From a virus: a stretch of DNA of 28,610 bases. The stretch spans positions 1-28,610 of the IMG/VR virus record IMGVR_UViG_3300046703_000105. The stretch is one strand, 5' to 3'. The notes under the pieces were generated by a model. The model did not search any database. It was not told the origin of the DNA and saw only the letters and a list, made by a program, of their open reading frames with translations. Positions 3,243-28,583 of this stretch are shown piece by piece (the stretch's first letter is position 1; each line of letters begins with the position of its first letter). The position numbers and the translations under genes were made by a program.

Positions 3243-3431
3243 ATGCCCCGTGGCAATCGTGTCTTGATGCTGCGCGATCTCTACCTTTCTGAGGTAGAAG
3301 ATGAGGAGGGTGAAATACGAAAAACGGGCTACGTGCAGGGGATTGTGTACAACTTTCCCACACACATCGCACGAGCCCTTGTGAAAAAGGGATACGCGGA
3401 GTTCTACCATGCGTCTAAGACGTCGAGTTGA
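3243..3431 (+). CDS. Small head-module protein (62 aa)
   Basis: The 62-residue product contains RVLMLRDLYLSEVEDEEGEI followed by NFPTHIARALVKKGYAEFY. Short proteins ending with a N-F-P...A-x-x-L-V-x-x-G-x-A-E-F segment are often coded between capsid and connector genes in tailed phages; no function is assigned here. It overlaps the connector gene by 23 bases, which suggests translational coupling. The start is uncertain: ATG 3243 lacks a clear ribosome site, and ATG 3267 would remove only 8 residues. Confidence 0.65.
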   Translation: MPRGNRVLMLRDLYLSEVEDEEGEIRKTGYVQGIVYNFPTHIARALVKKGYAEFYHASKTSS

Positions 3432-5297: not shown

Positions 5298-5708
5298 ATG
5301 ACAGCAATAAATGGTGCCTGTATTTTACTAGCGGTCGACACGACCGATGCGGGCAACTATGTTGAAGTGGGGATGCAAAAGAACGCCACGCTGAACATGA
5401 GTTCAGATACTATTGACGCAGCGTACAAGGCGTGTGGCGCTAACCTATGGAAGTCATACATCCCTGGCTACAAGGACTGGAGTGTTGACGCCGACGCACT
5501 TATCGTTGAGACGGACACGGCACTCGTGCACCTTGAGACCCACTGGCTTGCAGGAACGACTATACCAATAGCGGTAAAGACGCCAGCAAGCGCAACCAAA
5601 TGGACAGGCACAGTAGTTATAAAATCACTGAAATATTCAGCACCGGACGGCGGCCTTTACACCGCAGCAATCAGTCTACAAGGTACTGGCGCATTGGTCA
5701 AGGTCTGA
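5298..5708 (+). CDS. Major tail tube protein (TP901-1 type)
   Basis: The 136-residue product should form the hollow tail tube through which DNA passes. It shows INGACILLAVDTTDAGNYVEV, the N-terminal strand of the tube fold, then NATLNMSSDTIDAAYKACGANLWKSYIPGYKDWSVDAD (in order, the S-L/S-x-x-x-I-D-x-T...W-x...G-x-x-x-W-S-x-x-x-D signature of Phage_tail_2), and a C-terminal strand WTGTVVIKSLKYSAPDGGLY. AGAGGAGAG precedes ATG 5298. Its position between tail terminator and chaperones is standard. No sheath gene is present, which favours a non-contractile tail. Confidence 0.88.
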   Translation: MTAINGACILLAVDTTDAGNYVEVGMQKNATLNMSSDTIDAAYKACGANLWKSYIPGYKDWSVDADALIVETDTALVHLETHWLAGTTIPIAVKTPASATKWTGTVVIKSLKYSAPDGGLYTAAISLQGTGALVKV

Positions 5709-5723: not shown

Positions 5724-6086
5724 ATGACAGAATCTGTACTCACTATAACGACATCGACCGAGGCAGGACACCGGATAGACGATCACATGCTCCAGTGTGA
5801 CGCGGCAGGATCAACCTTTGCGAACGACGGCACTGTTATGTTGTTAGTCGATAGCGCAGGGGCCAAGAGTCCAATACTTACGGTGGTTTACGCACCTGCA
5901 AAAACTTGCCCTTATGGCGTTAGCCACAGCAGGACTTATACGTGTACCCTAGCTCAGATGCACCTGATCGGACCGTTCTCAACAGGGCACTTTAACGATG
6001 ATACTGGGCTGGTCCACATAACGTGGAGTGAAACGGATGCCAGTACAATGTGTTTGGCCTTTAAGAAAGGAGCTACGATGGGTTAG
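5724..6086 (+). CDS. Structural protein, first of a tandem paralogous pair
   Basis: This 120-residue beta protein shares the segments STEAGHRID, TFANDGTV, IGPFSTGHFND and TGLVHITWSE with the next gene. T-F-x-N-D-G...I-G-P-F...F-N-x...G-x-V-x-V-x-(W)-S is a common pattern of small phage proteins coded near capsid or tail genes; some are capsid decoration or fibre proteins. The role here is unknown. GGAAGTGAG lies just upstream of ATG 5724. See the following gene for its paralog. Confidence 0.7.
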   Translation: MTESVLTITTSTEAGHRIDDHMLQCDAAGSTFANDGTVMLLVDSAGAKSPILTVVYAPAKTCPYGVSHSRTYTCTLAQMHLIGPFSTGHFNDDTGLVHITWSETDASTMCLAFKKGATMG

Positions 6087-6099
6087 GTGGTGAGATAAA

Positions 6100-6468
6100 A
6101 TGGCAGCAGAAGCAGCATTAACAGTAAAGACGAGCTCCGAGGCCGGAGCACGGATAGACACGGGAACAACCTACTCGACGGCAAACACAGACGGGCACAC
6201 GTTCGCAAACGATGGAACGGTACTTATCTTCTGTCACAACACCGATGCGGCAGTAGATCCAGTACTCACCATAACCGGACAGAACGCCTGTATCTATGGA
6301 GTCATCCACACCACGACATATACGATGACCCACGCGCAAGCGCACGTCATAGGCCCGTTCAGCACGGCACACTTTAACGACACGGCTGGACTTGTACACA
6401 TCGACTGGAGTGCCACAGAATCAGACTGTGCGTTTTACCTAGTCAAGAAAGGGCCAACGCTAGACTAA
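6100..6468 (+). CDS. Structural protein, second of a tandem paralogous pair
   Basis: This 122-residue protein is a clear paralog of the product at 5724-6086: SSEAGARID, GHTFANDGTVLI, HVIGPFSTAHFND and GLVHIDWSAT align in order with no large gaps. The two genes are 13 bases apart, with GGTGGTGAG ahead of ATG 6100. Tandem duplication followed by divergence is inferred. A virion surface role is possible, since the same fold is often displayed on phage heads or tails. Confidence 0.7.
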   Translation: MAAEAALTVKTSSEAGARIDTGTTYSTANTDGHTFANDGTVLIFCHNTDAAVDPVLTITGQNACIYGVIHTTTYTMTHAQAHVIGPFSTAHFNDTAGLVHIDWSATESDCAFYLVKKGPTLD

Positions 6469-6504: not shown

Positions 6505-6918
6505 ATGAAGAAACTCAAAAATGAAGTCGTAGTTGAAGCAACTGACGAAAACGGTGAGCCTAAGGAGTTTAAATTAAGGTATGACCTTAACGCCTTGGCT
6601 GACTTTGAGGACCTCTATGATAAGAGCATCCTCGAAATATTCTCCCCTAGTATCAACGCTGAAGGAAAGTTTGTCCTTGATGAGGCTGGGATGCCCGTCA
6701 ATGTTTCCTTCCGCATTGGTATGCTTCGTGACCTTATCTGGGTTGGACTAAAGGCAAGACAACCGGAACTCACACGTGAAGATGTGGGTGCCCTGTTTGA
6801 CCTGTCTGACACCGACGCGATAATGCCGCACATCACCGAAGCCCTTGCGATGAGCAACCGCCAGCGGGTCCCGAAAGAGGATATCGTAGAAGAGGGTAAA
6901 GATCGCCCAAAAAAGTAA
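6505..6918 (+). CDS. Tail assembly chaperone G
   Basis: The product of the zero frame has 137 residues. It contains KEFKLRYDLNALADFEDLYD (the family's L-R-Y-D-x-N-A-L-x-x-F-E segment), then FRIGMLRDLIWVGLKARQPELTREDVGALF (R-x-L-I-W-x-G-L...P-x-L-T-x-E-x-V-G), and a short helix HITEALAMSNRQ. These are typical of gpG-like chaperones that coat the tape measure protein before the tube is built. The last codons before its TAA form the slippery site A-AAA-AAG at 6909-6915, so a fraction of ribosomes should shift into the T frame. Confidence 0.88.
   Translation: MKKLKNEVVVEATDENGEPKEFKLRYDLNALADFEDLYDKSILEIFSPSINAEGKFVLDEAGMPVNVSFRIGMLRDLIWVGLKARQPELTREDVGALFDLSDTDAIMPHITEALAMSNRQRVPKEDIVEEGKDRPKK
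6909..6915 (+). promoter_or_regulatory. -1 ribosomal frameshift site AAAAAAG
   Basis: The heptamer reads A AAA AAG in the G frame and fits the X XXY YYZ rule for -1 slippage. The zero frame stops right after it (TAA 6916-6918), and the -1 frame is open from here to 7373. It joins the G protein (137 residues) to a T domain of about 152 residues. No strong downstream stem-loop was noted. Confidence 0.85.
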
Positions 6919-7373
6919 TTACTGACACTGACTTCAAGACCAACTGGGATCTCATTTTTGAGGTAGCATTTGGCCCTCTCGGTTTCGGTCCGCACGAGTT
7001 GGATAAACTTGGCGAACTGACTGTGGGGGAACTGTGCGATATGTACGACGGTTGGGTCTGGCGTAAAGAGCGCGAACGAGAAGATGCCCTAGCGCAGACT
7101 TTCCTTCTTTTGAAAGCATGGGGTTCAGAAAAGCTCAAGTTTGAACAGTTACTTGGCAGACCACTCTATCCTGTTTTACGGTCAGTCCAGACAGAACCAA
7201 CCAAGATTGGGGCTACTAATGAACTCGGTGACAGTAGAACGAAAGAAGAGAAACTTGCGGAAGTCGCTGAGCTGAAAGAGATCTTTAAAGATGTGTTCAA
7301 GCCCAAAAAAGCAGAGGGAGACGACGATATCACCCCCCTCCTGATAGAGGCGGGTATAACAGAAGAGAGGTAA
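6915..7373 (+). CDS. T domain of the tail assembly chaperone G-T fusion (made by -1 frameshift)
   Basis: The -1 frame after the slippery site reads VITDTDFKTNWDLIFEVAFGPLGFGPHELDKLGELTVGELCDMYDGW and continues to TAA 7371-7373. It contains the usual T-domain order: W-x-L-I-F-x-V-A-F-G-x-L-G, then L-x-x-L-T-V-G-E-L-x-D-M, then an acidic, Lys-rich C-terminus. The only start codon in this frame before the domain is TTG 6999, which would cut off the conserved W-x-x-I-F part, so frameshift expression is much more likely. The full G-T fusion would be about 289 residues. The tape measure gene follows 1 base after the stop. Confidence 0.85.
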   Translation, partial: VITDTDFKTNWDLIFEVAFGPLGFGPHELDKLGELTVGELCDMYDGWVWRKEREREDALAQTFLLLKAWGSEKLKFEQLLGRPLYPVLRSVQTEPTKIGATNELGDSRTKEEKLAEVAELKEIFKDVFKPKKAEGDDDITPLLIEAGITEER

Positions 7374-7374
7374 C

Positions 7375-10300
7375 ATGGCGGGCAATGTATTAGCGGATTT
7401 AGTAGTGCGGGTGACGGGGGATATCACCCCTGTTGTCGCAGCATTTGGTAAGTTAAGGACGGAGATGACCGCCCTACAGACCATCGGCGCTGGCTTTACC
7501 GCTGTCGGCGCTGCCATGACCGCTGGCATTACCCTGCCTATAATGGCTATTGGTGCTGCCGCCGTGCAGAGCGCAGTCACGGTGGGTGGCGCTTACAAAG
7601 ACATTCAGGCACAGACTGGGACAACTGGTGCCGAACTGGAGAAGCTTAAACGCGGGTTCGACACCGTCTTTAGTCATGTACCCCAAAGCGCAAAAGAAGT
7701 CGCTCAGGTTATCTCTATTGTTTATGATAAGCTCAATGAGCTCAATTACGCCATCCCAGAAACCTCAAAGAAATTCTTAGACCTCGCCAGAATGTCGCAA
7801 GAGGCACCTCAAAAGCTGGCTGAGAATGTCTCTTCAATGTTATTACAATGGAAAGTACCAGCTTCTGAGGCTGCGAAAACCCTTGACTTACTCTATACCG
7901 CTTATACTAAAACCCACGTCCCAATAACGACGCTCACCAACGACGTTGATAAACAGGGGCAGGTGATGCGACAGGCGTATGGGTTCACCCTCCCTGAGAC
8001 TATTGCCCTGTTCTCATCCTTAAACGAGGTGGGCATTAGCACATCAGATATTATGCGTGGGATGGACTACGGCTGGTCAAATCTCACAAAAGCAATGACT
8101 GGGTCTGCGGGTGCATCGAAGCAGATGGCCCCTGTCGTAGCTGCCATTAATACTGAGCTAACAAAGATGAAGGGTAGCGCCAAGGACTCTGGCGACGTAA
8201 TGGCTGCCTTTTTCCAAGGCATTAAGGATGGTTCAATAACAGCAGGTGACGCTGCACTTGTCTTTGGTAATAGGTTCTCAGCACAAATTATCGGTGCCAT
8301 AAGAGAAGGGCGTCTCGACTTTAAAGATTTCCTGTCAATGCTTAATGAGGCTCCTGTAAGCCTGGATGCAGCCGCCGATGCAACGAAATACTTTTTCCAG
8401 AAGCTTGAGGAGTTAAAACACGGTTTCGAGGTTGCACTTGCTCCGCTCGGTATTGCTGTTATAGGCGTCTTGACAGGGTTCATGCCCGTCATCCAGCAGA
8501 TAATCGGTGGAATTACTAGACTTGTAAGCGCCTTTACTTCACTCCCCCAACCCATTCAAAACGCATTTATTATTATAGCAGGGCTTGCCGCTATCGTCGG
8601 ACCGCTCTTAATAGTTATTGGTCTCTTGATCTCCTCGTTTGCGACGATAGCTATGGGGGCTCTTGCATTTGCAGGGGCAATGATAACGTTAGCCCCCGCC
8701 ATTATCGCTATTGGACTTGTACTCGCACCCATCGTCATCGCTTTGGCCGCATTAGCCGCAGGATTTGCTTTAGCATACACGCAATCGGCAACGTTCCGTG
8801 GGATCCTTGGGACTCTCGCGGGTGATCTTATGGCGTTCGGCGGTCACGTTGCCGCTGCTTTTGGATTCTTTACAAAAGGTGAGTGGAAGCAAGGGCTTGC
8901 TGAACTCAAGAAAGGATTTGACGATCTCTTTAACGATTTAAAGAAGATTGATTGGCACTCTGTTGGGAAAACGATAATCGAGGAGATCCAAAAGGGTGTT
9001 AAAGACCTCATGAATACATGGGGTCCAATATGGGATGAGATTAAAACTAGCTTCACTAACTGGGTGAAAAGTGTCAACTGGCAGCAACTCTCACACGATA
9101 TACCCAATGGGATCATCAACGGGATAAAAGAACTTCAAAGCCTGTTAGGTCCTGTGTGGGATGGCATTGTAACAAGTTTCAAAACTTGGATGGGTAGCGT
9201 CCCATGGGGTCAGCTTGCCCAAGATATACCCAATGCGATCATAAATGCCATTAAACTTGGCATGGCCACCATTGGTCCTGTCTGGGACTTCATCGTTACG
9301 AGTTTCAACAACTGGAAGGCTAGTGTCAACTGGGCGCAACTTGCCGCAGACATACCCCTCAAGATTCAACAAGGGATCCAGACCGCCCAAGGTATAGTTG
9401 GCCCCGTATGGGACTTTATCAAGACCAGCCTAATCAACTGGATACACAGTGTCACGTGGGATGACGTTGGGAACCAGATTGGTTTAGCTATTAGAAATGC
9501 TATAAAGACTGCCCTTAATACCCTCGTTGGTGGCCTAGGTGAGCTTATACCCACAGGTGGTACAACAGGGGGCTCTTCTCTTTTCCAAACTGGATTAAAT
9601 GCCGCTACCAGTTTCCTTAGTGGTTTCCAGAATGGGCTTGGTGATCTCTGGCAACTTGTAATGGACGGGCTTGAGCCGCTTGCTGGAAAGATTGCCGACT
9701 ATATGGAGAATAATGTTAATTGGACGGCCATTGGAACTTTCATAGGTAACATATTAGGAACCATGATCACTTCGGGTATAAACGCCCTGTTCGGTACTGG
9801 TTCTGGGACAGATACTGACAAGGGGGGCGCACCTCCTGATCAAAATTCACCAATTTTTGCGGCAGGGGGCGTCGGAACAACTGGTGCGAGTCCCTATGGC
9901 ACAAAGACATCCGGTTGGACTAAACTAAGCCAGGCCGGTGAAGACGCGGGTGACGCCCTTGTTACCGGCTTTGTTAAAGGTGTCCAAGATGCCATGGCAA
10001 ATATCAAATGGAGTGAGGTTATTAAAAATGCCATCCTTGGTACTGGAAAGAATATAGAGAAGGAAGGGGAACCAATAGGGAACCAGGTGCCAGACCTCTC
10101 ATCTGCGTCTTCATTAAAAGGCGGCATATTTGACCCCAACGGCGAACCTTGGGCTTCAATAAATAGGTTGTTTGGTGGTCCGACAAAGGAAAACCAAGGA
10201 TATGGTTCGCAGTGGGGTACTGGTCAGAATAAAGGTGTAGCTAACCAGGCGGTGATATCTATTGCCTCAAAATTTGTACCAGTCGCCGGTGCTGTTTGGG

Positions 10301-11628
10301 ACTTCATATCAAAAGGAACGGCAAACTTAGCTGTAGAGGTTGTACAAAAAGGCGGCGAGTTCATTAATACACTTAAGAATCTTACCAGTAGGTTCCTTGT
10401 ATTCACTGTAAACATTGTTAAGAAGGGTGGTGAGTGGCTTGCTAACTTCACTGGAAAGGTCGTAGACTTTACCGTAAATATCCTTAAGAAGGGTGGAGAA
10501 TGGATTAGCAACTTCACTGGAAAGGTCGTAGACTTTACCGTAAATATCCTTAAGAAGGGTGGAGAATGGATCAGCAACTTTACTGGGAAGGTTGTTGACT
10601 TTACTGTAAACATCATCAAGCAAGGTGGCGAATGGCTTGACACATTAAAAACCACCGTCATTAATATTGCCGTAGCAATCGGATCGTTTGTCACAACTGT
10701 TGCTGACTCGTGGCTTAACACCATACACAATGTTGCTTCTGGAATAGCAAGTTGGGCTACCAGCGTTGCTGACACGTGGCTTAATACAATACACAACACC
10801 GCAACAGCAATAGGGTCCTGGGCGACTGGTGTCGCAGATACGTGGCTTAACGCAGTACACAACACTGCAACAGCGATCGCAAGCTTCGCCACAGGTGTTG
10901 CTGATTCATGGCTTAACGCAGTACACAACACTGCAACAGCGATCGCAAGCTTCGCCACGGGTGTCGCTGATAGCTGGCTTAACGCTATACACAGCACCTC
11001 AGCACAAATTTGGTCATTTGCTACTGGCGTGGCAGATGCGTGGTTGAACGCACTCCATAGTATCAACATTCAGGGGATTTGGCAAGGGATCTTAGGGGGT
11101 TTGCCTTCTCTTACGATTGACATTTTTGGCGTGCTAAAGCTTGCAGGGGGGGCACTTATTGGCTGGGGTAAAGCAGTAGCAAATAAATTGGGGTGGCGCA
11201 CGGAACCTACCCCACCAACACCTGTCGATCCGATGAAGTATCGCTCACCAGCCGCAGAATCCGCAGGAGCAACTGGTGCGCATGCATCAGGGATATTAGC
11301 GCTCGCAGATGGGCTCAGATCTTTAGCCACCGGCGCCTACGGAGAAGAAGCTCCGGCGTATATGACTAGCAAACCCCAACTCGCCGTGATTGGCGAAGCC
11401 GGTCCAGAAGCAGTCATACCACAGAAGTACTGGTGGGCAATACAGCCGTGGGTGCTTCAGGCATTACCAAAGTTAGGTGGTGGGGCGAGCATCGGTGCTG
11501 GTGCAACAGGGGTCGCTAGTTCTATAGAAATTAATGTTACAGGAAATACAATCCTTGATGACCGAGCAGCCCGCAAACTCGCTAAAACAATAGCCGACAC
11601 GATCAAGCATGAACGTGGGATTATCTGA
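7375..11628 (+). CDS. Tape measure protein
   Basis: This 1417-residue protein sets tail length and is ejected with the DNA. Residues 1-110 carry the PhageMin_Tail-like start (VRVTGDITPVVAAFGKLR, then LQTIGAGFTAVGAAMTAG). Hydrophobic segments fall at about 350-385 and 395-470. Three repeat arrays follow: four units of 42 residues with W-D-x-I-x-T-S (9022-9525), about four of 22 residues with KKGGEW (10327-10641), and six of 22 residues with WLNxxHN (10711-11070). The C-terminus has AVIGEAGPEAVIPQKYW, a classic tape-measure ending, and IEINVTGNTILDDRAARKLA. No lysozyme or peptidase domain was seen. It overlaps nothing and is followed by an A-rich 35-base gap. Confidence 0.93.
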   Translation: MAGNVLADLVVRVTGDITPVVAAFGKLRTEMTALQTIGAGFTAVGAAMTAGITLPIMAIGAAAVQSAVTVGGAYKDIQAQTGTTGAELEKLKRGFDTVFSHVPQSAKEVAQVISIVYDKLNELNYAIPETSKKFLDLARMSQEAPQKLAENVSSMLLQWKVPASEAAKTLDLLYTAYTKTHVPITTLTNDVDKQGQVMRQAYGFTLPETIALFSSLNEVGISTSDIMRGMDYGWSNLTKAMTGSAGASKQMAPVVAAINTELTKMKGSAKDSGDVMAAFFQGIKDGSITAGDAALVFGNRFSAQIIGAIREGRLDFKDFLSMLNEAPVSLDAAADATKYFFQKLEELKHGFEVALAPLGIAVIGVLTGFMPVIQQIIGGITRLVSAFTSLPQPIQNAFIIIAGLAAIVGPLLIVIGLLISSFATIAMGALAFAGAMITLAPAIIAIGLVLAPIVIALAALAAGFALAYTQSATFRGILGTLAGDLMAFGGHVAAAFGFFTKGEWKQGLAELKKGFDDLFNDLKKIDWHSVGKTIIEEIQKGVKDLMNTWGPIWDEIKTSFTNWVKSVNWQQLSHDIPNGIINGIKELQSLLGPVWDGIVTSFKTWMGSVPWGQLAQDIPNAIINAIKLGMATIGPVWDFIVTSFNNWKASVNWAQLAADIPLKIQQGIQTAQGIVGPVWDFIKTSLINWIHSVTWDDVGNQIGLAIRNAIKTALNTLVGGLGELIPTGGTTGGSSLFQTGLNAATSFLSGFQNGLGDLWQLVMDGLEPLAGKIADYMENNVNWTAIGTFIGNILGTMITSGINALFGTGSGTDTDKGGAPPDQNSPIFAAGGVGTTGASPYGTKTSGWTKLSQAGEDAGDALVTGFVKGVQDAMANIKWSEVIKNAILGTGKNIEKEGEPIGNQVPDLSSASSLKGGIFDPNGEPWASINRLFGGPTKENQGYGSQWGTGQNKGVANQAVISIASKFVPVAGAVWDFISKGTANLAVEVVQKGGEFINTLKNLTSRFLVFTVNIVKKGGEWLANFTGKVVDFTVNILKKGGEWISNFTGKVVDFTVNILKKGGEWISNFTGKVVDFTVNIIKQGGEWLDTLKTTVINIAVAIGSFVTTVADSWLNTIHNVASGIASWATSVADTWLNTIHNTATAIGSWATGVADTWLNAVHNTATAIASFATGVADSWLNAVHNTATAIASFATGVADSWLNAIHSTSAQIWSFATGVADAWLNALHSINIQGIWQGILGGLPSLTIDIFGVLKLAGGALIGWGKAVANKLGWRTEPTPPTPVDPMKYRSPAAESAGATGAHASGILALADGLRSLATGAYGEEAPAYMTSKPQLAVIGEAGPEAVIPQKYWWAIQPWVLQALPKLGGGASIGAGATGVASSIEINVTGNTILDDRAARKLAKTIADTIKHERGII
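9022..9525 (+). repeat. Four 126-bp tandem repeats inside the tape measure gene
   Basis: Units start at 9022, 9148, 9274 and 9400, each encoding G-P-(I/V)-W-D-x-I-x-T-S-F/L-x-x-W...I-P-x-x-I. The period is exactly 126 bases (42 residues). The copies differ by many substitutions, so the array is old compared with the 66-base arrays downstream. Confidence 0.8.
10327..10641 (+). repeat. 66-bp tandem repeats (KKGGEW units) inside the tape measure gene
   Basis: Units of 22 residues start at 10402, 10468, 10534 and 10600, with a degenerate unit before them at about 10327. The pattern is F-T-V-N-(I/L)-x-K-x-G-G-E-W...F-T-G-K-V-V-D. Two consecutive units are almost identical at DNA level over more than 50 bases, showing recent copying. 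Trp and Phe are 11 residues apart, the spacing known in tape measure proteins. Confidence 0.85.
10645..11070 (+). repeat. 66-bp tandem repeats (WLNxxHN units) inside the tape measure gene
   Basis: Six units with Trp codons at 10711, 10777, 10843, 10909, 10975 and 11041 encode 22 residues each, W-L-N-(A/T)-(I/V)-H-N-x-A...A-T-G-V-A-D. Two neighbouring units are nearly identical over about 33 bases (10861 and 10927). The exact 66-base spacing continues from the previous array, so both may derive from one ancestral unit. Confidence 0.85.
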
Positions 11629-16010: not shown

Positions 16011-16540
16011 ACTCAAAAAGTAACGACAATGTAACGATTGTAACGTATGACGTAGACAAACTAGCAAGGTTCTACAATACATCAAAGGAAGAAATAGAAC
16101 ACAGGATTCGCGCAGGTCAGTACTTTACAGAGGCCACTGAAGATATGGTCTCCACACAGACGGCTCATAACCTCATCACCAACGCTGGCCTGGATCTTAT
16201 GGTAAACCGACTCAAAGACAAGGACAGCACGACTGTGAGGCTGACGCACTTCGCCATCGGCACAGGGGACACTGCAGCCACTGTCGCCGATACTATCCTT
16301 GGCACCGAGGTTTACCGTGATATGATAACCTACTTAGGCCATACCTCGACAGGCGTTATCACAATAAAATGTTATATCCCTACCGCATATCCCACGACGC
16401 AGCCAGTTACATTGAATGAAGCAGGGCTTTTCAATGCCTCGACGTTAGGCTCTCTTTTTGCGAGGGTATTGATAAGCCCCCCTGTAAGTAAAACCACTAG
16501 TATTTCAATGACAATCACATGGGAGGTTCACACAACATGA
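15998..16540 (+). CDS. Baseplate- or fibre-linked structural protein (AIGTG type)
   Basis: This 180-residue protein overlaps the hub gene by 13 bases. Key segments are NLITNAGLDLMVNRL, then LTHFAIGTGDTAATVADTIL (the A-I-G-T-G motif), then VTLNEAGLFNASTLGSLFAR near residue 150 and a final strand TWEVHTT. This N-x-I-x-N-x-G-L...I-A-I-G-T-G...E-A-G-L pattern is common in tail fibre- or baseplate-linked proteins. It ends in ATGA, shared with the fibre gene that follows. Confidence 0.75.
   Translation: MYKLNSKSNDNVTIVTYDVDKLARFYNTSKEEIEHRIRAGQYFTEATEDMVSTQTAHNLITNAGLDLMVNRLKDKDSTTVRLTHFAIGTGDTAATVADTILGTEVYRDMITYLGHTSTGVITIKCYIPTAYPTTQPVTLNEAGLFNASTLGSLFARVLISPPVSKTTSISMTITWEVHTT
16521..16527 (+). 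promoter_or_regulatory. Ribosome site deciding the first fibre start
   Basis: GGGAGGT at 16521-16527 sits 9 bases before ATG 16537. It supports this ATG over ATG 16519, which lies before the site and would add six residues. Confidence 0.6.
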
Positions 16541-17967
16541 CTTATGCACCAACAACCTGGTTAGATAATGACAGTATAACCGCTACCAAGCTCAACAATA
16601 TGGAGGGGCAGTACGATGCCGCTAAGACCGACTTTGGCGCTATTACCGTGACGGTTACAGTGGCAGTTGACGGCACGTCAATCCACGCCATTGGGGCGGA
16701 CTACCTCGTGCCTATTGGTTCAACCACTGCCGAGACGTACATCAACGCCGCGATAGACGCTGCGGTGGCCGCCGGAGGTGGAGAAGTGCTCTTGCTTGAG
16801 GGGACTTACGTTATCGACGGCGAAATAATGGTACACGACAATATCACCCTGAGTGGTATGGGTGCTAACACAATTATTAAGATAAAGGACAGCTCTGCTT
16901 CGCTTAGTGCCATTCGGAACAATAGCTACACGGCGCCTGGTAACAAGAATATTGTCATTAAAGACTTAACTATTGACGGCAACAAAGGCGCCCAGGCGAA
17001 CACCCAGTACGGTATGAACATCAACTACTGCACCGATACTTCTGGGCGGATTATCATACGCAACTGCTTTATCAAGAATGTTCGTGACTATGGTATTCAT
17101 GTTTATGGTTCAAAGACCGTGCTTATCGACAAGTGTGTCTTGACCGGCTGTGGAAAGGTGGGTAACGAAGCACTTATCAGATGTGATCTTTCAAACGTGG
17201 CAGTGACAAACTGTACGTGTGGTGATAGCACTAACGGAATCTGGTTGTATGGTTGTAACGATTCAATCATCTCAAACAGCGCCTGGTTTTCGACAACTGG
17301 CTCTGGCATTTCCCTTACTAATAGTACAGTACGAACAGCGGTGACTGGTTGTACATCTTATGATACTGTTGCGGGTATTTATATCAACGATTCTGCATAT
17401 ACGGCGCTTGCTGGCAACACGTTCCGCAACAACACCTCTTATGGTGCCTGGATGTCAAGCGCAAGTCATTATACTAACATCACCGGAAACTCATTTTACA
17501 AGAATGGTTACAATATCAGGGCGGTTAGTTCAAACTATGTACTTATCAGCGGGAACACCTGTTCTTATTCCACCGCTTACGATGGCATCAAACTTGAGTC
17601 CTGCAATCGAGGGGAGGTCTCATCAAACGTCGTATATATGAACGGTGGGTATGGCATATACCTCTACAGCTCGACACGGAATGTTATTGCAGGAAACAAC
17701 GTAACCGCCAATGCACAGGTCCTTGCAGGGCCAAATATCTACCTGTACATGAATAGTTCTTACAATTCAGTAACAGGGAACTTGTGCTATAAAGGAAGTG
17801 GCCCCAAATACCCCACGTGGGGTATCGACATTGGAAGCACCAACTGTGCGTATAATTTAGTAACAGGGAACAACATTAAGGAAGGGGGGTCATCGGGAGC
17901 CATATACGACAATGGGGGATCCACCGATAAAACTGGTTGGATGGCCGCAGGGAATAAGGTGGCGTGA
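16537..17967 (+). CDS. Tail fibre/spike with right-handed beta-helix (first)
   Basis: From ATG 16537 the protein has 476 residues. It opens with YAPTTWLDNDSITATKLNNMEGQYDAA, a small fibre-attachment domain common in phages (Y-x-P-x-x-W-x-D...I-T-A-x-x-L-N-x-M-E). Near residue 60-115 AAGGGEVLLLEGTYVIDG and IMVHDNITLSGMG open a pectate-lyase-like right-handed beta helix. Many short turns follow (NxIxxNxxxx, GIYLYxS). The C-terminus, with IYDNGGSTDKTGWMAAGNKVA, is shared with the next gene. Such helices bind or cut surface glycans; no catalytic residue was identified. ATGA overlaps the preceding gene, and TGA overlaps the next gene's start. Confidence 0.85.
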   Translation: MTYAPTTWLDNDSITATKLNNMEGQYDAAKTDFGAITVTVTVAVDGTSIHAIGADYLVPIGSTTAETYINAAIDAAVAAGGGEVLLLEGTYVIDGEIMVHDNITLSGMGANTIIKIKDSSASLSAIRNNSYTAPGNKNIVIKDLTIDGNKGAQANTQYGMNINYCTDTSGRIIIRNCFIKNVRDYGIHVYGSKTVLIDKCVLTGCGKVGNEALIRCDLSNVAVTNCTCGDSTNGIWLYGCNDSIISNSAWFSTTGSGISLTNSTVRTAVTGCTSYDTVAGIYINDSAYTALAGNTFRNNTSYGAWMSSASHYTNITGNSFYKNGYNIRAVSSNYVLISGNTCSYSTAYDGIKLESCNRGEVSSNVVYMNGGYGIYLYSSTRNVIAGNNVTANAQVLAGPNIYLYMNSSYNSVTGNLCYKGSGPKYPTWGIDIGSTNCAYNLVTGNNIKEGGSSGAIYDNGGSTDKTGWMAAGNKVA

Positions 17968-20900
17968 TGACAACCCCAACAACAACTAATTTTGGGAGCA
18001 TTCCCCTCACCTATACGCGCTATGGTGCTGGGGGGCCACTACTTGAATTTCCTACATCAACTGATGGCGAATTTAACGTTTTTAGTTTAATAAAAACATC
18101 GACCACTACGATAGCAAACCCAATTAATAAGTATTATCTATATACCTCCCCACACGCCTCCCCAGGGGAGATATTTCTTTATACTGCCCCCACACCAGAA
18201 GGGCCTTGGAGTTTATACAGTCAAACCCCTGTGATCCCATTCTCTATACTGGGGGGTTCACCTTCAGCACTCCACGTTTCGTCGCCCCAGGTTGTATGGA
18301 ATCCGAGCACCAGCTTATTAAACTGTTACTTCCACGTAGGGGGGCAGACAGGCCCTATTGCTACTGGTCAACAGTCAATATTTTTGGCGACATCTCCTAA
18401 TGGAATAAATTGGACATTATATAGCCATACGGCAGTCCTTAACTGGGGAACATCGCCAGCATGGGATTGTTATTATGTAGCGTATCCTACAGTCGTTAGG
18501 ATAGATAGCACCCACTGGTATATGTGGTATCAAGCGACAGGGGGGGATGGGTTAGGTGCGTTGAGCATCGGCCTTGCCACGAGCACAAATGGGCTCACAT
18601 GGACTAAGTATGGAAGCAACCCAGTTATATTCTGCGAAGCAGCGTTAGGAGAGCCCACCACCCCTGGTGCGATGGCCCCAGCGGTTTATCACAATAATGA
18701 CAGTGGTGGCATGTTCTACATTTTATATACGTGCGGTACTGGTGGAGACGGAAGTATCTACATAGCCAAGACCGCAGACACGCACAATTATTATAAGTAC
18801 ACTGACAATCCAATATTTATCCCGACAGCTGATGGGTGGGACGGGGGTAACGTCGGGTGTGGGGACTTTTTATATGACAATGGTAATTACTATCTTTTCT
18901 ATGTTGGCGTAAGTGTCGCCAACCAAGTCACTTATGCGGGTGCAAACTTAGGACTCACCACTAATCCACTTATCCCACAAGTAACCCTTGGAGTAGCCCA
19001 ACGGATATATGAGTCTACGATGGTGGGTTGTGTTGCTAGATATGACATGGAAGAGTCGATAGGCCCAATTGTTAACAGAATCACCCCAGGCACCCACGAC
19101 CTCCTCAACTTTGGGGGTGTGCAGGGGGTGGCGACAAGCCATGCAAAGTTCTATGGGTTTAATGGTACGAGTGCGTATATGGAAATGAATGACACATACA
19201 CTCTCACTGATGATTTCTCTGTTGAGGTGATCTGTTCGATAAGTGCTAGTACTGGGGCTGATCAACTCATTTTTGGTGATATGTCTGGTGGGACGGGTTG
19301 GGCTCTTTACTATGATGACTCTGCGACAAAGTTTTGGTTTGTGTCAAAGTTAGGGGGTGCACCCCTCATCACTATTTCAAGTTTAGCCAATGTCACGTTT
19401 GGAAAAGTGAATCATATTCTCATCACTCACGATGCAGATGGGGGGGCTAATAACACAAAGATATACATTAACGGCACCCTCAACAACTCAGCGACCAACG
19501 CAAGCCCACCAGGCGGCCACGGAGTCTACGGAATCGGTGCGGGAGAATATCTAAAGGGGCGCGTTTTCCTTTGTTGTATCTATAATAGGGTCTTGTCCGA
19601 CACCGAGGATGCCCAGAACTTTGAGAGTGAACGGTGGCGCATACCCCACACTAGACATACATGGGCTGCGGCACCATCAGCAGCGGCTGTTCATACTTAC
19701 GCACGGATAACAAACCTTGAAAAGCAATGGGAGCACCTTGCCTGTGACATTGGACCCATTCAAGCCACACAGATCGTGGCCACAACGACCTCTTTAAAGA
19801 AGGCCGGAGCCGACTTCATTTGTGATGGTACGGCAGATGACGTGCAGATCCAAGCGGCTGTTGACGCGGCACACGCTGTTGGTGGGGGGACTGTGATGAT
19901 CCTCGACGGCACGTACGTTCTCGCGGCTTCCATTAAACTCTATGACAATATCACTCTTTGTGGTATGGGGCGTGCCACTAAGTTAAAACGCTACGGTGGT
20001 GTCGGATATTACGCTATCGAAAACTATGACGGGAACGAAGGGAACGCAGGAATTACTATACGGGATCTAACTATCGTTGGAAATGGCGGCACATCATTGG
20101 CGAACACGTGTGAAAAAGGGATCTTTTTTACCAACTGCATAGAGGTCCCATACATAAGCATCCAAAAAGTTCACTTTAGTGACAATGTGTACGAAGGGAT
20201 TGAACTTACAGAATGTCAGCACGTTGTTGTTGATGGCTGCTCAAACGTAGGGCGGCAGGCGAGTGGTGCTGGGAGTTTTCTTTTGTATGGTGATAATTCT
20301 AAGTTTCTTCAGATAGCTAATTGTTCTGCTTTAGAATACAGTGGGATCTATTTGTACCAATGTAGTGACAGCATGATAAAGGGGTGTGTAGTGACAACAA
20401 ACGCCGTAGCCGCTTATAATTTCTTTGAGTGCACTCATTGTGGGGTTATAGGTTGTTCATCTGCGCCAGATAGTGTGGGGTCGCCGTTTATGGGTATACT
20501 GGATAGTACTGGCCTACAGAACCTCTTTACTAATAACGTTATCTATAAAGGAACGGCTGGGGGGATTGATATGGACTCTGACTCTGTAGGTAACGTTGTT
20601 ATAGGTAACGTCATCCGAGACACCGAAGGCTATGGGATCCTTTATGGGGACAGCTTAGGATACGCGAACTTATCCTTTAACAACATCAGTAACGCTAGTA
20701 AAGACGGCATACGCGCCCCCTACGTATCAGCTGCCACAATAAGTGGGGGGGTCATAAACAGTAACAACATATTTTACTGTGCACGTAACGGGATAGTTCT
20801 TTCAGCGGTAGCACGTAGTGTATGCAACTATAATGTTTGCTTTCAAAACACCCACACCGATAACACTGGTTCAAACATAGCCATCTACGACGAAGCGTCG

Positions 20901-21119
20901 GGATACTATAGCAGTGAGAACCTTGTCAGCCAGAACCTTTGTCATAAAGGAGATACAGCCCCCAGACCGTCCCAAGGCATCTGGATTGGAACTGGCTCCA
21001 CTAACAATATGGTTACAATGAACTATCTTAAAGATAGTGGTCAGACAGCAGCACTTACCAATAGTGGCACCACCACTGACTTAAAGACTTGGATGACTGC
21101 CGGTAATAAGATCGCTTAG
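17967..21119 (+). CDS. Tail spike with beta-propeller, LamG and beta-helix domains (second)
   Basis: From ATG 17967 it has 1050 residues (GTG 17964 is an alternative; AAGGTGG at 17956-17962 fits ATG better). Residues about 30-345 form a five-bladed propeller-like region with repeats of Y-L-Y-T...A-P-T-P-E-G-P-W and FLATSPNGINWTLYS, as in GH43/GH32-type glycosidases. Residues about 353-565 are LamG-like (CVARYDMEE, YIEM-like strand, IYINGTLNNSA, IYNRVLSDTE). From about 615 a beta helix begins with ADFICDGTADDVQIQAAVDAA and GGGTVMILDGTYVL, as in the previous gene. The C-terminal TWMTAGNKIA matches the first fibre. It is likely a glycan-binding or cutting spike; catalytic carboxylates were not assigned. 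Confidence 0.85.
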   Translation: MTTPTTTNFGSIPLTYTRYGAGGPLLEFPTSTDGEFNVFSLIKTSTTTIANPINKYYLYTSPHASPGEIFLYTAPTPEGPWSLYSQTPVIPFSILGGSPSALHVSSPQVVWNPSTSLLNCYFHVGGQTGPIATGQQSIFLATSPNGINWTLYSHTAVLNWGTSPAWDCYYVAYPTVVRIDSTHWYMWYQATGGDGLGALSIGLATSTNGLTWTKYGSNPVIFCEAALGEPTTPGAMAPAVYHNNDSGGMFYILYTCGTGGDGSIYIAKTADTHNYYKYTDNPIFIPTADGWDGGNVGCGDFLYDNGNYYLFYVGVSVANQVTYAGANLGLTTNPLIPQVTLGVAQRIYESTMVGCVARYDMEESIGPIVNRITPGTHDLLNFGGVQGVATSHAKFYGFNGTSAYMEMNDTYTLTDDFSVEVICSISASTGADQLIFGDMSGGTGWALYYDDSATKFWFVSKLGGAPLITISSLANVTFGKVNHILITHDADGGANNTKIYINGTLNNSATNASPPGGHGVYGIGAGEYLKGRVFLCCIYNRVLSDTEDAQNFESERWRIPHTRHTWAAAPSAAAVHTYARITNLEKQWEHLACDIGPIQATQIVATTTSLKKAGADFICDGTADDVQIQAAVDAAHAVGGGTVMILDGTYVLAASIKLYDNITLCGMGRATKLKRYGGVGYYAIENYDGNEGNAGITIRDLTIVGNGGTSLANTCEKGIFFTNCIEVPYISIQKVHFSDNVYEGIELTECQHVVVDGCSNVGRQASGAGSFLLYGDNSKFLQIANCSALEYSGIYLYQCSDSMIKGCVVTTNAVAAYNFFECTHCGVIGCSSAPDSVGSPFMGILDSTGLQNLFTNNVIYKGTAGGIDMDSDSVGNVVIGNVIRDTEGYGILYGDSLGYANLSFNNISNASKDGIRAPYVSAATISGGVINSNNIFYCARNGIVLSAVARSVCNYNVCFQNTHTDNTGSNIAIYDEASGYYSSENLVSQNLCHKGDTAPRPSQGIWIGTGSTNNMVTMNYLKDSGQTAALTNSGTTTDLKTWMTAGNKIA

Positions 21120-22413: not shown

Positions 22414-22722
22414 TTACATTCTTTGGGTTAGGTACTCAAAATACTCTTCTGCCGTCTTTGTCTTTTTCTTTATATTACAAGACCTACATGATAGGGCTAC
22501 ATTAGAAAGGTCTAACGTACCCCCTCGCGAAAGTGGTGTTTTATGTTCCACAGTATATGGGGGTAAACACACACCACAATAAAAACAATATCCCTCTTGC
22601 ACTTCAAAAAGAGAACTTATCTGGCTTATTGAAAGGTTATATTTTCTTAAACGGGCATCGTTGAGGCGGAGTCCTATCCTGATGCTGTGATACCTAGTAA
22701 GAAATGAGGGGAGTTCTTGCAT
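22414..22722 (-). CDS. HNH endonuclease (zinc-binding type)
   Basis: This 102-residue minus-strand protein carries the HNH motif: C46-x-x-C49 (YCFYCG), E59-H60 (TVEHKTPLSRGG), N74 (LSNVALSC) and C79-x-x-C82 (CRSCNIKK). Two CxxC pairs bind one zinc ion, and H60 should be the catalytic base. The N-terminal helix is basic. The ATG follows directly on the stop of the upstream minus-strand gene, so both are one transcript. HNH genes of this size are usual free-standing nucleases of phages and could nick or cut DNA during replication, or act as selfish elements. Confidence 0.85.
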   Translation of the reverse strand: MQELPSFLTRYHSIRIGLRLNDARLRKYNLSISQISSLFEVQEGYCFYCGVCLPPYTVEHKTPLSRGGTLDLSNVALSCRSCNIKKKTKTAEEYFEYLTQRM

Positions 22723-23253
22723 CTATTTTACCACCCTATAACGCTCAACGGGCTTAGCATCTTGGAGGATTCTTTTTATTTCAGTGAGGTCCGCAGCCTC
22801 TAACTCTTTTTGCTTTTTAACTACCTTCAACTTGTTTTCTATCATTGCTTGCTCAAAGACCTCTTGCCCTGGTACGGTGAGATGTGCAGGATTCATACAA
22901 GCTTTTATTTTACATACTGTTTCAACTTTTTCACCATCAGGAATACGCTCGAAGTGCAAAAGATACATAAGCCTTCGGGCAGATACTGTCTTGCCTTTTG
23001 GTATGTGGATCTGTCCAGGGCGCGGGGCAACCTCTCGGTGATTCAGAAAAAATTGCCCATCGCCTTGGTGCGATCCGCTGTATATCCAATGAGGATCATT
23101 TAGCTCGCCAGCAGTCACACACTTCGCTTTTAGCCGCACTAGGATGGCCTCGCGGTTGGCGTGGGACCCAAGAATATCATTTAACTGCATAAAATACTCA
23201 TAGCTTTCATGATTTATAAGCTTTCCTAGTTCGTTCCTAGTGATTCTTTCCAA
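22723..23253 (-). CDS. HNH-like protein with degenerate active site
   Basis: The start is TTG 23251-23253 (minus strand), giving 176 residues; no strong ribosome site is visible. Residues 85-125, GKTVSARRLMYLLHFERIPD then ETVCKIKACMNPAHLTV, match the common phage HNH domain. C114, C119, N121 and H124 are present, but the usual His-His before the first Cys is replaced by Thr-Val, so the catalytic base seems missing. It may bind DNA without cutting. The C-terminal 50 residues are a Lys/Glu-rich helix. It is the first gene of the minus-strand pair, transcribed away from the palindrome at 23288. Confidence 0.75.
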   Translation of the reverse strand: MERITRNELGKLINHESYEYFMQLNDILGSHANREAILVRLKAKCVTAGELNDPHWIYSGSHQGDGQFFLNHREVAPRPGQIHIPKGKTVSARRLMYLLHFERIPDGEKVETVCKIKACMNPAHLTVPGQEVFEQAMIENKLKVVKKQKELEAADLTEIKRILQDAKPVERYRVVK

Positions 23254-25263: not shown

Positions 25264-25674
25264 ATGACCGGCTGTTGGATATGGCCCCGTGCAAAAGATC
25301 ATTTAGGATATGGGGTGATCTGGGATCCTAAGCAGAAGAGACAAGTTAAGGCACACAGGTACTACTATGAATTATTTATTAGCGAGGTGCCTGAAGGAAT
25401 AAAGGTTCTTCATCACTGTGACAACCCCTCATGTTACAATCCTAGACACCTATTTCTAGGAACTCAAAAAGATAATATGCAAGACTGTGTCAAAAAAGGG
25501 CGTTTAAAGAGTAAAGGAAAAGCAAAGTTGACACAAGCAATGGCAGATGAGATCCGCAGACGATACTCACGAGGTATCAATCAGAACCAACGAGGTAATA
25601 AAAACCAACTTGCTGAAGAGTTTGGTATAACCCCCCTATATATTTTAGATCTGGTGCGCGGCAGACGTTGGTAA
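25264..25674 (+). CDS. HNH endonuclease with a C-terminal helix-turn-helix
   Basis: This 136-residue protein has the full HNH active site: H50-H51-C52-D (VLHHCDNPSC), C57, N59 and H62 (YNPRHLFLGT), N71. It is the same type as the minus-strand protein at 22723-23253, but with intact histidines. Residues 85-136 contain AKLTQAMADEIRRRY and NQLAEEFGITPLYILDLVRGRRW, a helix-turn-helix that would target DNA. These free-standing HNH enzymes act as homing endonucleases or help in replication and packaging. GGGGTAATT lies 5 bases before the ATG. Confidence 0.85.
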   Translation: MTGCWIWPRAKDHLGYGVIWDPKQKRQVKAHRYYYELFISEVPEGIKVLHHCDNPSCYNPRHLFLGTQKDNMQDCVKKGRLKSKGKAKLTQAMADEIRRRYSRGINQNQRGNKNQLAEEFGITPLYILDLVRGRRW

Positions 25675-25931: not shown

Positions 25932-26655
25932 AGAGTTCTACACAGTAAAGGGCGAAACCATGCCGCGTGTTACCCACGTCCTTGGGATCGTAGGTAACAA
26001 ACAACACCTCATCCAATGGGCGGCAAACTCGGCGGTAGAATACATTGAGCAGACGCTAGAGCCCCTCAAGAAGACACCCTACCAGATCCCCCACATACTC
26101 CCCGAAACCCTAGCCGCAGCCAAGAAGCGTCACCTTATCATCAGAGACTCAGCTGGAGACCGTGGTAAGGAGCTCCACAAGCTTTTGGAACGCAAGCTCA
26201 AGGGTGAAGAGGTAGACATGACCCCCTACGTGGGTGACAAGGTCATCACCAAAGCCCTCAAGCAACTCGACTCCTGGATAGCCGAGTGGGGATTCACACC
26301 AGTCACTTACACAACAGCCATCGGAGCTCAGGCACCCTCAGTTGAGGTGCAGGTTCACTCCGACACTCATCACTACGCAGGAACAGCCGACGCCATAGGC
26401 CGCAACAAAGATGGGCAACTCATGCTCATTGACCTCAAGACAGGGAAATCCACACACAAGTCAATGGAGATCCAATGTGCCGCCTATGCAATGGCCTGGG
26501 GTGAGATGTGTGGCGACTACCCCGACACCTGTATGGTCCTCCACACACTTCCATCAGGATCCATCCGAGCAAAACACATAATGAACCGCAAGGACTACGA
26601 GCAGCGGTTCGAGCTCTTCCTACACGCACTGGCAATCTATGACTTTTACCGTTAA
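25924..26655 (+). CDS. PD-(D/E)XK nuclease, RecB/Cas4-like exonuclease
   Basis: The 243-residue protein contains the full motif set: MPRVTHVLGIV near the start, G81-K-E-L-H85 (the G-x-x-x-H motif), E141 in the strand VEVQVHS, Y-A-G-T-A-D156, D170-L-K172-T-G (the catalytic D-x-K), and Q184-x-x-x-Y188. Such nucleases process DNA ends in recombination and replication, or degrade DNA. The absence of Cys clusters argues against a Cas4 iron-sulphur type. ATG 25924 overlaps the zinc-ribbon gene; the lipoprotein gene overlaps its end by 17 bases. Confidence 0.88.
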   Translation: MDKEFYTVKGETMPRVTHVLGIVGNKQHLIQWAANSAVEYIEQTLEPLKKTPYQIPHILPETLAAAKKRHLIIRDSAGDRGKELHKLLERKLKGEEVDMTPYVGDKVITKALKQLDSWIAEWGFTPVTYTTAIGAQAPSVEVQVHSDTHHYAGTADAIGRNKDGQLMLIDLKTGKSTHKSMEIQCAAYAMAWGEMCGDYPDTCMVLHTLPSGSIRAKHIMNRKDYEQRFELFLHALAIYDFYR

Positions 26656-27391
26656 GCTGTTGGTAGCCTTCGCAGCTTTACTCATTATCATAAGCATGAC
26701 TGGATGTGTTAAAAATGTCACACCGACCCCACCTTCACAAACCCCGACGGTATATGTCACGCTTGCGCCTACGCCGACTTCATCTCCTACGCCTACGCCG
26801 AAAGCTACAGTTACTCCTACTCCCTCACCAACTCCTCCACTACCAACGCCGACTCCGGCAGTCCCTCCCTACGGCTCCTACATCCTCTCAGGAACCCACG
26901 TCAACCCCAACACACAGTTTTATTTTAACCCAGCTGGATCTCCCCCAGGGACCTTGGGTGCTCTCCAGGCAGCGATGAATACTTGGGCTTCTAAAATACC
27001 CGCCGGTAGATTCAAGCCGATCATCACTGGGAACTCAACCCCCTGCCAACTCGACGGTAAGAACACCATCGGCTTCGGACCGCTTGACACCGGCACCCTC
27101 GCAGAGACATGGACGTGGGGTAACGGAGAGATTGACATGATCTTCAACACCTACTACCTCTGGGGCAATGACCCCGACGGGGAAGGTCCCCTCCACCTCC
27201 CCGTTAACACCTACGACCTACAGAACACAGCCACCCACGAGTTCGGCCACGTTGTAGGACTCAATGACATTTACAACTCAGCCTTCAGCTACGTCACAAT
27301 GTATGGTGAGGCCGACACTGCTGAATCCTACAAAGACAGCCTATCACCGCCTGATATATACGCCGTTCAAATGATCTACGGAGCCTCATAA
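26639..27391 (+). CDS. Secreted lipoprotein metalloprotease (metzincin, matrixin/snapalysin-like)
   Basis: The 250-residue protein has a signal peptide and lipobox SMTGC with Cys23, then a Thr/Pro-rich linker (about 27-76; TPTPSPTP repeats), and a protease domain. H200-E201-F-G-H204-V-V-G-L-N-D210 is the HExxHxxGxxD zinc motif, with Asp as third ligand as in snapalysins, and TMYG (Met221) is the Met-turn. This is unusual among viral proteins. It should be anchored outside the host cell and could cut surface-layer proteins for release or block entry of rivals. The gene overlaps the nuclease gene, so it is part of the same operon. Activity is inferred from motifs. Confidence 0.82.
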   Translation: MTFTVKLLVAFAALLIIISMTGCVKNVTPTPPSQTPTVYVTLAPTPTSSPTPTPKATVTPTPSPTPPLPTPTPAVPPYGSYILSGTHVNPNTQFYFNPAGSPPGTLGALQAAMNTWASKIPAGRFKPIITGNSTPCQLDGKNTIGFGPLDTGTLAETWTWGNGEIDMIFNTYYLWGNDPDGEGPLHLPVNTYDLQNTATHEFGHVVGLNDIYNSAFSYVTMYGEADTAESYKDSLSPPDIYAVQMIYGAS

Positions 27392-27861: not shown

Positions 27862-27928
27862 ACTAATCTACATTCTCGTGGTGATAATCATACTCTTGAT
27901 TATCCTAAGACTTGCGGGGCTACTCTAA
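27854..27928 (+). CDS. Single-helix membrane micropeptide (24 aa)
   Basis: ATG 27854 overlaps the preceding gene by 8 bases. It encodes 24 residues, almost all a membrane helix (LIYILVVIIILLIILRLAGLL). It lies just before the CcdA gene, so it could be an accessory subunit of that membrane protein. It could also be a chance ORF. Confidence 0.35.
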   Translation: MTELIYILVVIIILLIILRLAGLL

Positions 27929-27929
27929 G

Positions 27930-28583
27930 ATGCAAGAACTGACCGAACCCATAGCCTTCCTGGCTGGCATCGTCTCAATCTTCAGCCCCTGTGTCCTCCC
28001 CCTACTCCCAGCGATAGTGGCATCCACCACCGAACGCGGTAAGCTACGTCCCCTTGCTATTGTAATGGGCCTTGCCGTGACTTTCGTGCTGATGGGTGTC
28101 CTCGCCGGAACATTAGGGGAGGTTTTCGGCCAGTTCCAAATCTACCTGACCGCAGCATCCATCGGGATCCTCGTCTTTATGGGCCTCTATATGCTGTTCG
28201 ACATCCACCTCCCTTTCACACAACAACTAAACTTCTTTAACCGACTCAGTTATCACACCTATTCAATTCCCTCTGAAGGATTAGTTAGTGGTATCCTTTT
28301 AGGTATGGCACTCGGTATCATCTGGATCCCTTGTGTTGGCCCAGTATTGGCAGCAGTCCTCACGATGGTAGCAGTGTCAGAAAGCCCACTCACCGGAGCG
28401 TGGATGTTATTCGTTTATTCGTTAGGCCTCGCTGTCCCTATGCTCGCAATAGCATACATGAGTAGCCTCAGCATGGGCCTGGTCCACAACGCTTCAAGAA
28501 TGATCTGGATTAAGAAAATTGGCGGGTTCGTTCTTATACTGATAGGCGTTTACCTAGCCTTCCCTTACTTACACATCTACTAA
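27930..28583 (+). CDS. ccdA: CcdA-type cytochrome c biogenesis / thiol transfer membrane protein
   Basis: From ATG 27930 the protein has 217 residues with six hydrophobic segments, matching the DsbD/CcdA family. C21 in FSPCVLPLLPA (first helix) and C135 in IIWIPCVGPVLAAV (fourth helix) are the redox pair that moves electrons from cytoplasmic thioredoxin across the membrane. They serve haem c maturation or thiol repair outside the membrane. The length is normal for CcdA. It sits in the virus accessory operon, so an auxiliary metabolic gene or an adjacent host gene are both possible. TTG 27912 would add six residues but has no ribosome site. Confidence 0.88.
   Translation: MQELTEPIAFLAGIVSIFSPCVLPLLPAIVASTTERGKLRPLAIVMGLAVTFVLMGVLAGTLGEVFGQFQIYLTAASIGILVFMGLYMLFDIHLPFTQQLNFFNRLSYHTYSIPSEGLVSGILLGMALGIIWIPCVGPVLAAVLTMVAVSESPLTGAWMLFVYSLGLAVPMLAIAYMSSLSMGLVHNASRMIWIKKIGGFVLILIGVYLAFPYLHIY

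Follow-up and report, generated by a model that had tools for sequence, protein, structure and literature searches.

Many long-tailed phages produce tail assembly chaperones of the G and G-T type by frameshifting, and the haloarchaeal viruses HVTV-1, HCTV-1, HCTV-2, HCTV-5 and Hardycor1 have also been reported to use -1 shifts (PMC5009743, PMC8211752, PMC7911831). The site used in HCTV-2 is A AAA AAC (PMC5009743, PMC7911831). The locus described here is very likely the tail assembly chaperone G/G-T of a long-tailed virus, with a -1 frameshift at CCCAAAAAAG.

Gene order around G and T

The window, that is, the whole stretch of DNA analysed (28,610 nt), is the 28.6-kb virus record IMGVR_UViG_3300046703_000105. 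A sister virus, IMGVR_UViG_3300048804_000205, was used as the reference for the substitution tests. The window carries genes for a prohead protease (starting at 229), an HK97-type capsid protein (starting at 867), connectors (starting at 3409 and 4384), a tail terminator (around 4850) and the major tail (tube) protein (5298-5708, + strand; phrog_1407, E 6e-31), the last of these upstream of G. The frame overlap of G and T sits between the major tail protein gene and the tape measure protein gene (7375-11628, + strand), which was identified by phrog_1272 (E 1e-45) and TIGR01760 (E 1.6e-13). The genes encoding tail-tip and beta-helix proteins are found 3' of the tape measure gene.

Some other features of the record are worth describing. 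Near the 5' end of the capsid gene there is an A run (910-917), and an A AAA AAG heptamer in the proper phase is found at 911. The major tail protein gene and G are separated by two tandem paralogous genes (5724-6086 and 6100-6468, about 120 aa each), whose products are possibly tail decoration proteins. In the tape measure gene, the region 10250-11070 encodes the repeated peptide units FTVNILKKGGEW... and ATGVADTWLNAVHNTATAI..., and the DNA repeats align to the sister in several registers. Further downstream, 16519-17967 and 17964-21119 encode two right-handed beta-helix (NosD-like) proteins that are consecutive and related, with a laminin-G-like domain in the second one. These are probably receptor-binding tail proteins, and the beta-helix genes (16519-21119) are more diverged from the sister than the tail module is. 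Three HNH-type nuclease genes are also present (22414-22722 and 22723-23253 on the - strand, 25264-25674 on the + strand), and the first of them resembles, by profile search, the HNH part of IscB/Cas9 proteins.

Overlapping reading frames and the slip site

G (6505-6918, + strand) is an open reading frame whose product by standard decoding has 137 aa. It runs from the ATG at 6505 to the TAA stop at 6916-6918 (+ strand), and its 3' end reads GAT CGC CCA AAA AAG TAA, with CCA at 6907-6909, AAA at 6910-6912 and AAG at 6913-6915. Starting at 6900, the -1 frame contains 157 codons without interruption up to its stop at 7371-7373, which leaves one base before the tape measure gene begins at 7375. 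On the 5' side, this frame is closed by the TAA at 6897-6899 (+ strand), so the frame switch must occur within 19 nt. The T domain (6915-7373, + strand, -1 frame) has 152 aa, and the G-T fusion has 289 aa, with the junction ...DRPKK-VITDTDFKTNW.... The earlier note had placed the end of G, A-AAA-AAG-TAA, at 6909-6918 and the end of the open -1 frame at 7373, and both coordinates are exact. It had also stated that no ATG precedes the T domain, which agrees with a first in-frame ATG only at 7041, within LTVGELCDMYDGW; 5' of TTG 6999 the frame contains no ATG, GTG or TTG. The probability of a random 157-codon opening at the local composition is around 1e-4, and the longest off-frame stop-free stretch inside the other genes of the window has 114 codons, versus 157 for the T frame.

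Within the site CCCAAAAAAG, two slip heptamers with a common phase overlap: C CCA AAA (6906-6912, + strand) and A AAA AAG (6909-6915, + strand). Considering that X-XXY-YYZ heptamers in the correct phase appear at only 0.13% of codons, the probability of one within the 19-nt overlap is about 0.008. A slip at either of them would give the identical protein, RPKKVIT. The shift had previously been assigned to AAAAAAG; this heptamer is indeed present and phased, and it is also found in the sister virus, but the overlapping C CCA AAA was overlooked, and the latter is the one common to all relatives as C CCA AAN. A AAA AAG is replaced by A AAA AAC in the virus IMGVR_UViG_2799112252_000001 (L027) and is missing from Geobacillus phage GBK2 and Bacillus phage Silence. 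Ribosomes may shift at C CCA AAA besides, or in place of, A AAA AAG. In lambda, the slip site is G GGA AAG. According to PMC5009743, the heptamers C CCA AAG, G GGA AAG and A AAA AAG are all prone to shifting in E. coli. A second copy of CCCAAAAAAG, at 7302-7311, was discarded as a slip site, as its phase does not fit the T frame and it lacks conservation.

According to the proposed mechanism, most ribosomes would translate G up to its TAA stop. A minority, as we infer both for the slip itself and for its rate, would slip back one base on CCCAAAAAAG (at C CCA AAA and/or A AAA AAG) and read the -1 frame to 7373, giving the G-T fusion and, with it, a peptide spanning RPKKVITDTDFK. If the two products work as they do in lambda, numerous G and few G-T molecules would coat the tape measure protein, and T would recruit the tail tube subunits.

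Given the run of six A at the site, the frame change could also be explained by slippage of the RNA polymerase, which would produce mRNAs of varied length without any shift of the ribosome. Nevertheless, longer runs are usually required for polymerase slippage, GBK2 and Silence present the same layout with only three A, and the A run of the window is phased as ribosomal heptamers, which makes this explanation highly improbable.

Concerning the stimulation of the frameshift at CCCAAAAAAG, a Shine-Dalgarno-like GAGG (6892-6895, + strand) is located 10 nt before the first heptamer and could act as a stimulator. The distance between GAGG and CCC is exactly 10 nt in the window, the sister, GBK2 and Silence, and this repeated spacing is suggestive of such a role, as far as sequence comparison allows, although it is conserved in part because the proteins share homologous E-x-x-x-x-P peptides. 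The spacing also resembles that in E. coli dnaX. The strength of GAGG was not retained as evidence by itself, given that 27% of coding intervals are equally strong. On the 3' side, a possible stem-loop (6921-6989, + strand) begins 5 nt after the second heptamer. In GBK2, Silence and L027, the slip site is followed after 7-8 nt by a strong hairpin (z -5 to -6; 7 nt in Silence), whereas that of the window is weak, with z values from -0.1 to -1.8 by length and a rank in the top 14% of nearby stretches. In the sister, one pair of this hairpin is broken and the region folds differently. The stem-loop is at most a candidate stimulator, its energy being unexceptional and the structure not being kept in the sister. 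A hidden RNA signal after the slip site was rejected, since the 62-nt run identical to the sister is within chance; the 20 unchanged codons in this comparison are not unusual either (permutation P 0.28).

Relatives of G and T and selection on the -1 frame

GBK2, Silence and L027 each encode distant homologues of G as well as of T, arranged with this order and -1 relation, and near the 3' end of G they carry C CCA AAC, C CCA AAG and C CCA AAA AAC, respectively. In Silence (AKU43354/AKU43353), G (30%) and T (35%) are homologous to those of the window, T is in the -1 frame and adjoins the tape measure gene, and C CCA AAG is immediately 5' of the G stop. Its genes were deposited joined as a 'tape measure chaperone' with a product of 247 aa. 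On the other hand, Silence differs from the window in its single heptamer, its strong hairpin, its bacterial host and its shorter T (107 aa). GBK2 genes 12 and 13 are also homologous to G and T, but in this case T was deposited truncated and without a join, and one codon (GAG) separates the slip site from the stop. A search through the capsid protein among viral contigs found no further relatives, and the genome scan with T found no homologue.

G and T show 93% amino-acid identity with those of the sister virus. The DNA of the sister is around 13% diverged, yet the slip site, the G stop and the next bases are identical. In the T region, 20 of the 27 substitutions are third-position changes with respect to the -1 frame, and dN/dS is 0.07 in this frame versus more than 1 in both other frames. 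The third-position bias and the low dN/dS indicate that T is translated in the -1 frame, which, judging from this comparison, is under strong purifying selection. These data also bear on whether T could be an in-frame extension of G that has decayed or was mis-sequenced, through a one-base assembly error or a frameshift mutation. A-runs are indeed prone to sequencing error. However, the junction is identical in the diverged sister, the independent isolates Silence and GBK2 keep the same -1 relation, and T is still under purifying selection, so it is almost certainly not an artefact or a remnant of this kind.

It could also be argued that T is a separate gene with its own start, translated through internal initiation or because ribosomes re-initiate once G has ended. 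TTG (6999-7001, + strand) is in the T frame, ATT 6918 shares its first base with the G stop, and both ATT 6918 and ATT 6954 are present in the sister; moreover, T4-like phages reportedly make their chaperones without frameshifting, by another mechanism. Nevertheless, an own start for T is very unlikely. TTG 6999, the alternative start named in the earlier note, is TCG in the sister virus, and initiation there would omit NWDLIFEVAFGPLGF, which is aligned with LDWxxI..A(Y/F)GPLN in the relatives. As for ATT 6918, GAGG lies more than 20 nt 5' of it, a gap too distant for normal initiation. Furthermore, none of the relatives has a start codon at a conserved position 5' of the T motif: start-like codons are placed differently in each of them, while the position of the slip motif is constant.

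Regarding protein families, G matches the phrog_2115 tail protein (E 9e-13) and one of its homologues matches the phrog_183 tail chaperone; no Pfam or NCBIfam family matched G or T. The AlphaFold models were of low to middling confidence (pLDDT 64 for G and 53 for T). The comparison of the G model with BFVD retrieved viral tail assembly chaperones, with the best three at E 1.5e-4 to 2.6e-4, and one BFVD entry of 247 aa, the same length as the joined product of Silence, was the top match for both G and T. Nothing convincing was matched among the solved structures of the PDB. The reading of this locus as a G/G-T chaperone, already made in the earlier note, is supported by the gene order, the homologues with the same layout (joined in Silence), the coding evolution of the -1 frame and the loss of TTG in the sister.

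Host and comparison with described systems

The gene at 27912-28583 encodes a CcdA/DsbD-like membrane protein. Its genome relatives are archaeal in 16/16 cases, mostly from Ca. Methanoperedens, in a search with no bacterial comparison set, and it is matched in 34/34 Methanoperedens family genomes with up to 49%. For the matrixin-like lipoprotein encoded at 26639-27391, which contains a TP-rich linker, there is a 41% relative in the genome with the best CcdA match. Both genes are at the contig end, outside the part common to the sister, and may therefore represent host flank or cargo. The tail and capsid proteins match those of bacterial phages (25-39% identity), the tail ones mainly from Firmicutes. 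Among the 34 Methanoperedens family genomes, no convincing nucleotide match that would provide a CRISPR-spacer or provirus link was found, the matches being short, A-rich or inside the TP-rich linker, and no T homologue was detected; capsid-protein matches were weak and appeared in 1/16 genomes. The T match obtained in a single genome of the Methanoperedens class (L044) was weak and was rejected, as it adjoins an AAA ATPase-like ORF and no tape measure gene was seen. From these gene relationships, an archaeal host seems reasonably probable. The archaeal setting considered in the earlier note is likely in view of the CcdA-like gene relatives, but the tail genes resemble those of Firmicutes phages.

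If the host is Methanoperedens, its lysine tRNAs could be relevant to the slip. tRNA-Lys(CUU) is clear in a Methanoperedens genome analysed with ARAGORN. This program calls another tRNA (L070, 1501-1596) as Asn or Leu, and it resembles an intron-bearing tRNA-Lys(UUU); the Methanoperedens tRNA-Lys(UUU) probably sits in this miscalled, intron-bearing gene. tRNA-Lys(CUU) should re-pair poorly when slipping from AAG to AAA, and the C CCA AAA heptamer would then be favoured. There are few worked cases of archaeal frameshifting, and a test would be informative given the lysine tRNAs of archaea. Tentatively, the window could come from a Methanoperedens virus that shifts to the -1 frame at a double site (C CCA AAA/A AAA AAG), aided by the upstream GAGG and not by a hairpin. 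If true, this would extend -1 recoding beyond the haloarchaea, to a tail module whose relatives are in Firmicutes phages.

A literature search of partial coverage found no such slip site in viruses of methanogens or Methanoperedens. The earlier note had presented the locus as a case of archaeal frameshifting on condition that the host is archaeal; the locus itself is well supported, but haloarchaeal viruses already have reported -1 shifts. With these viruses the window shares a -1 heptamer ending the gene before the tape measure gene and, probably, an archaeal host (PMC5009743, PMC7911831). They differ in that their quoted sites are a single A- or G-led heptamer, and they are known isolates from halophilic hosts. 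With lambda gpG/gpGT, the window shares the position, the direction of the shift and the two-product logic (PMC5009743). What is added is a well-supported G/G-T locus from what is probably a virus of an uncultured methane-oxidising archaeon: the mechanism is familiar, and what is less common is its occurrence with a host that is likely archaeal.
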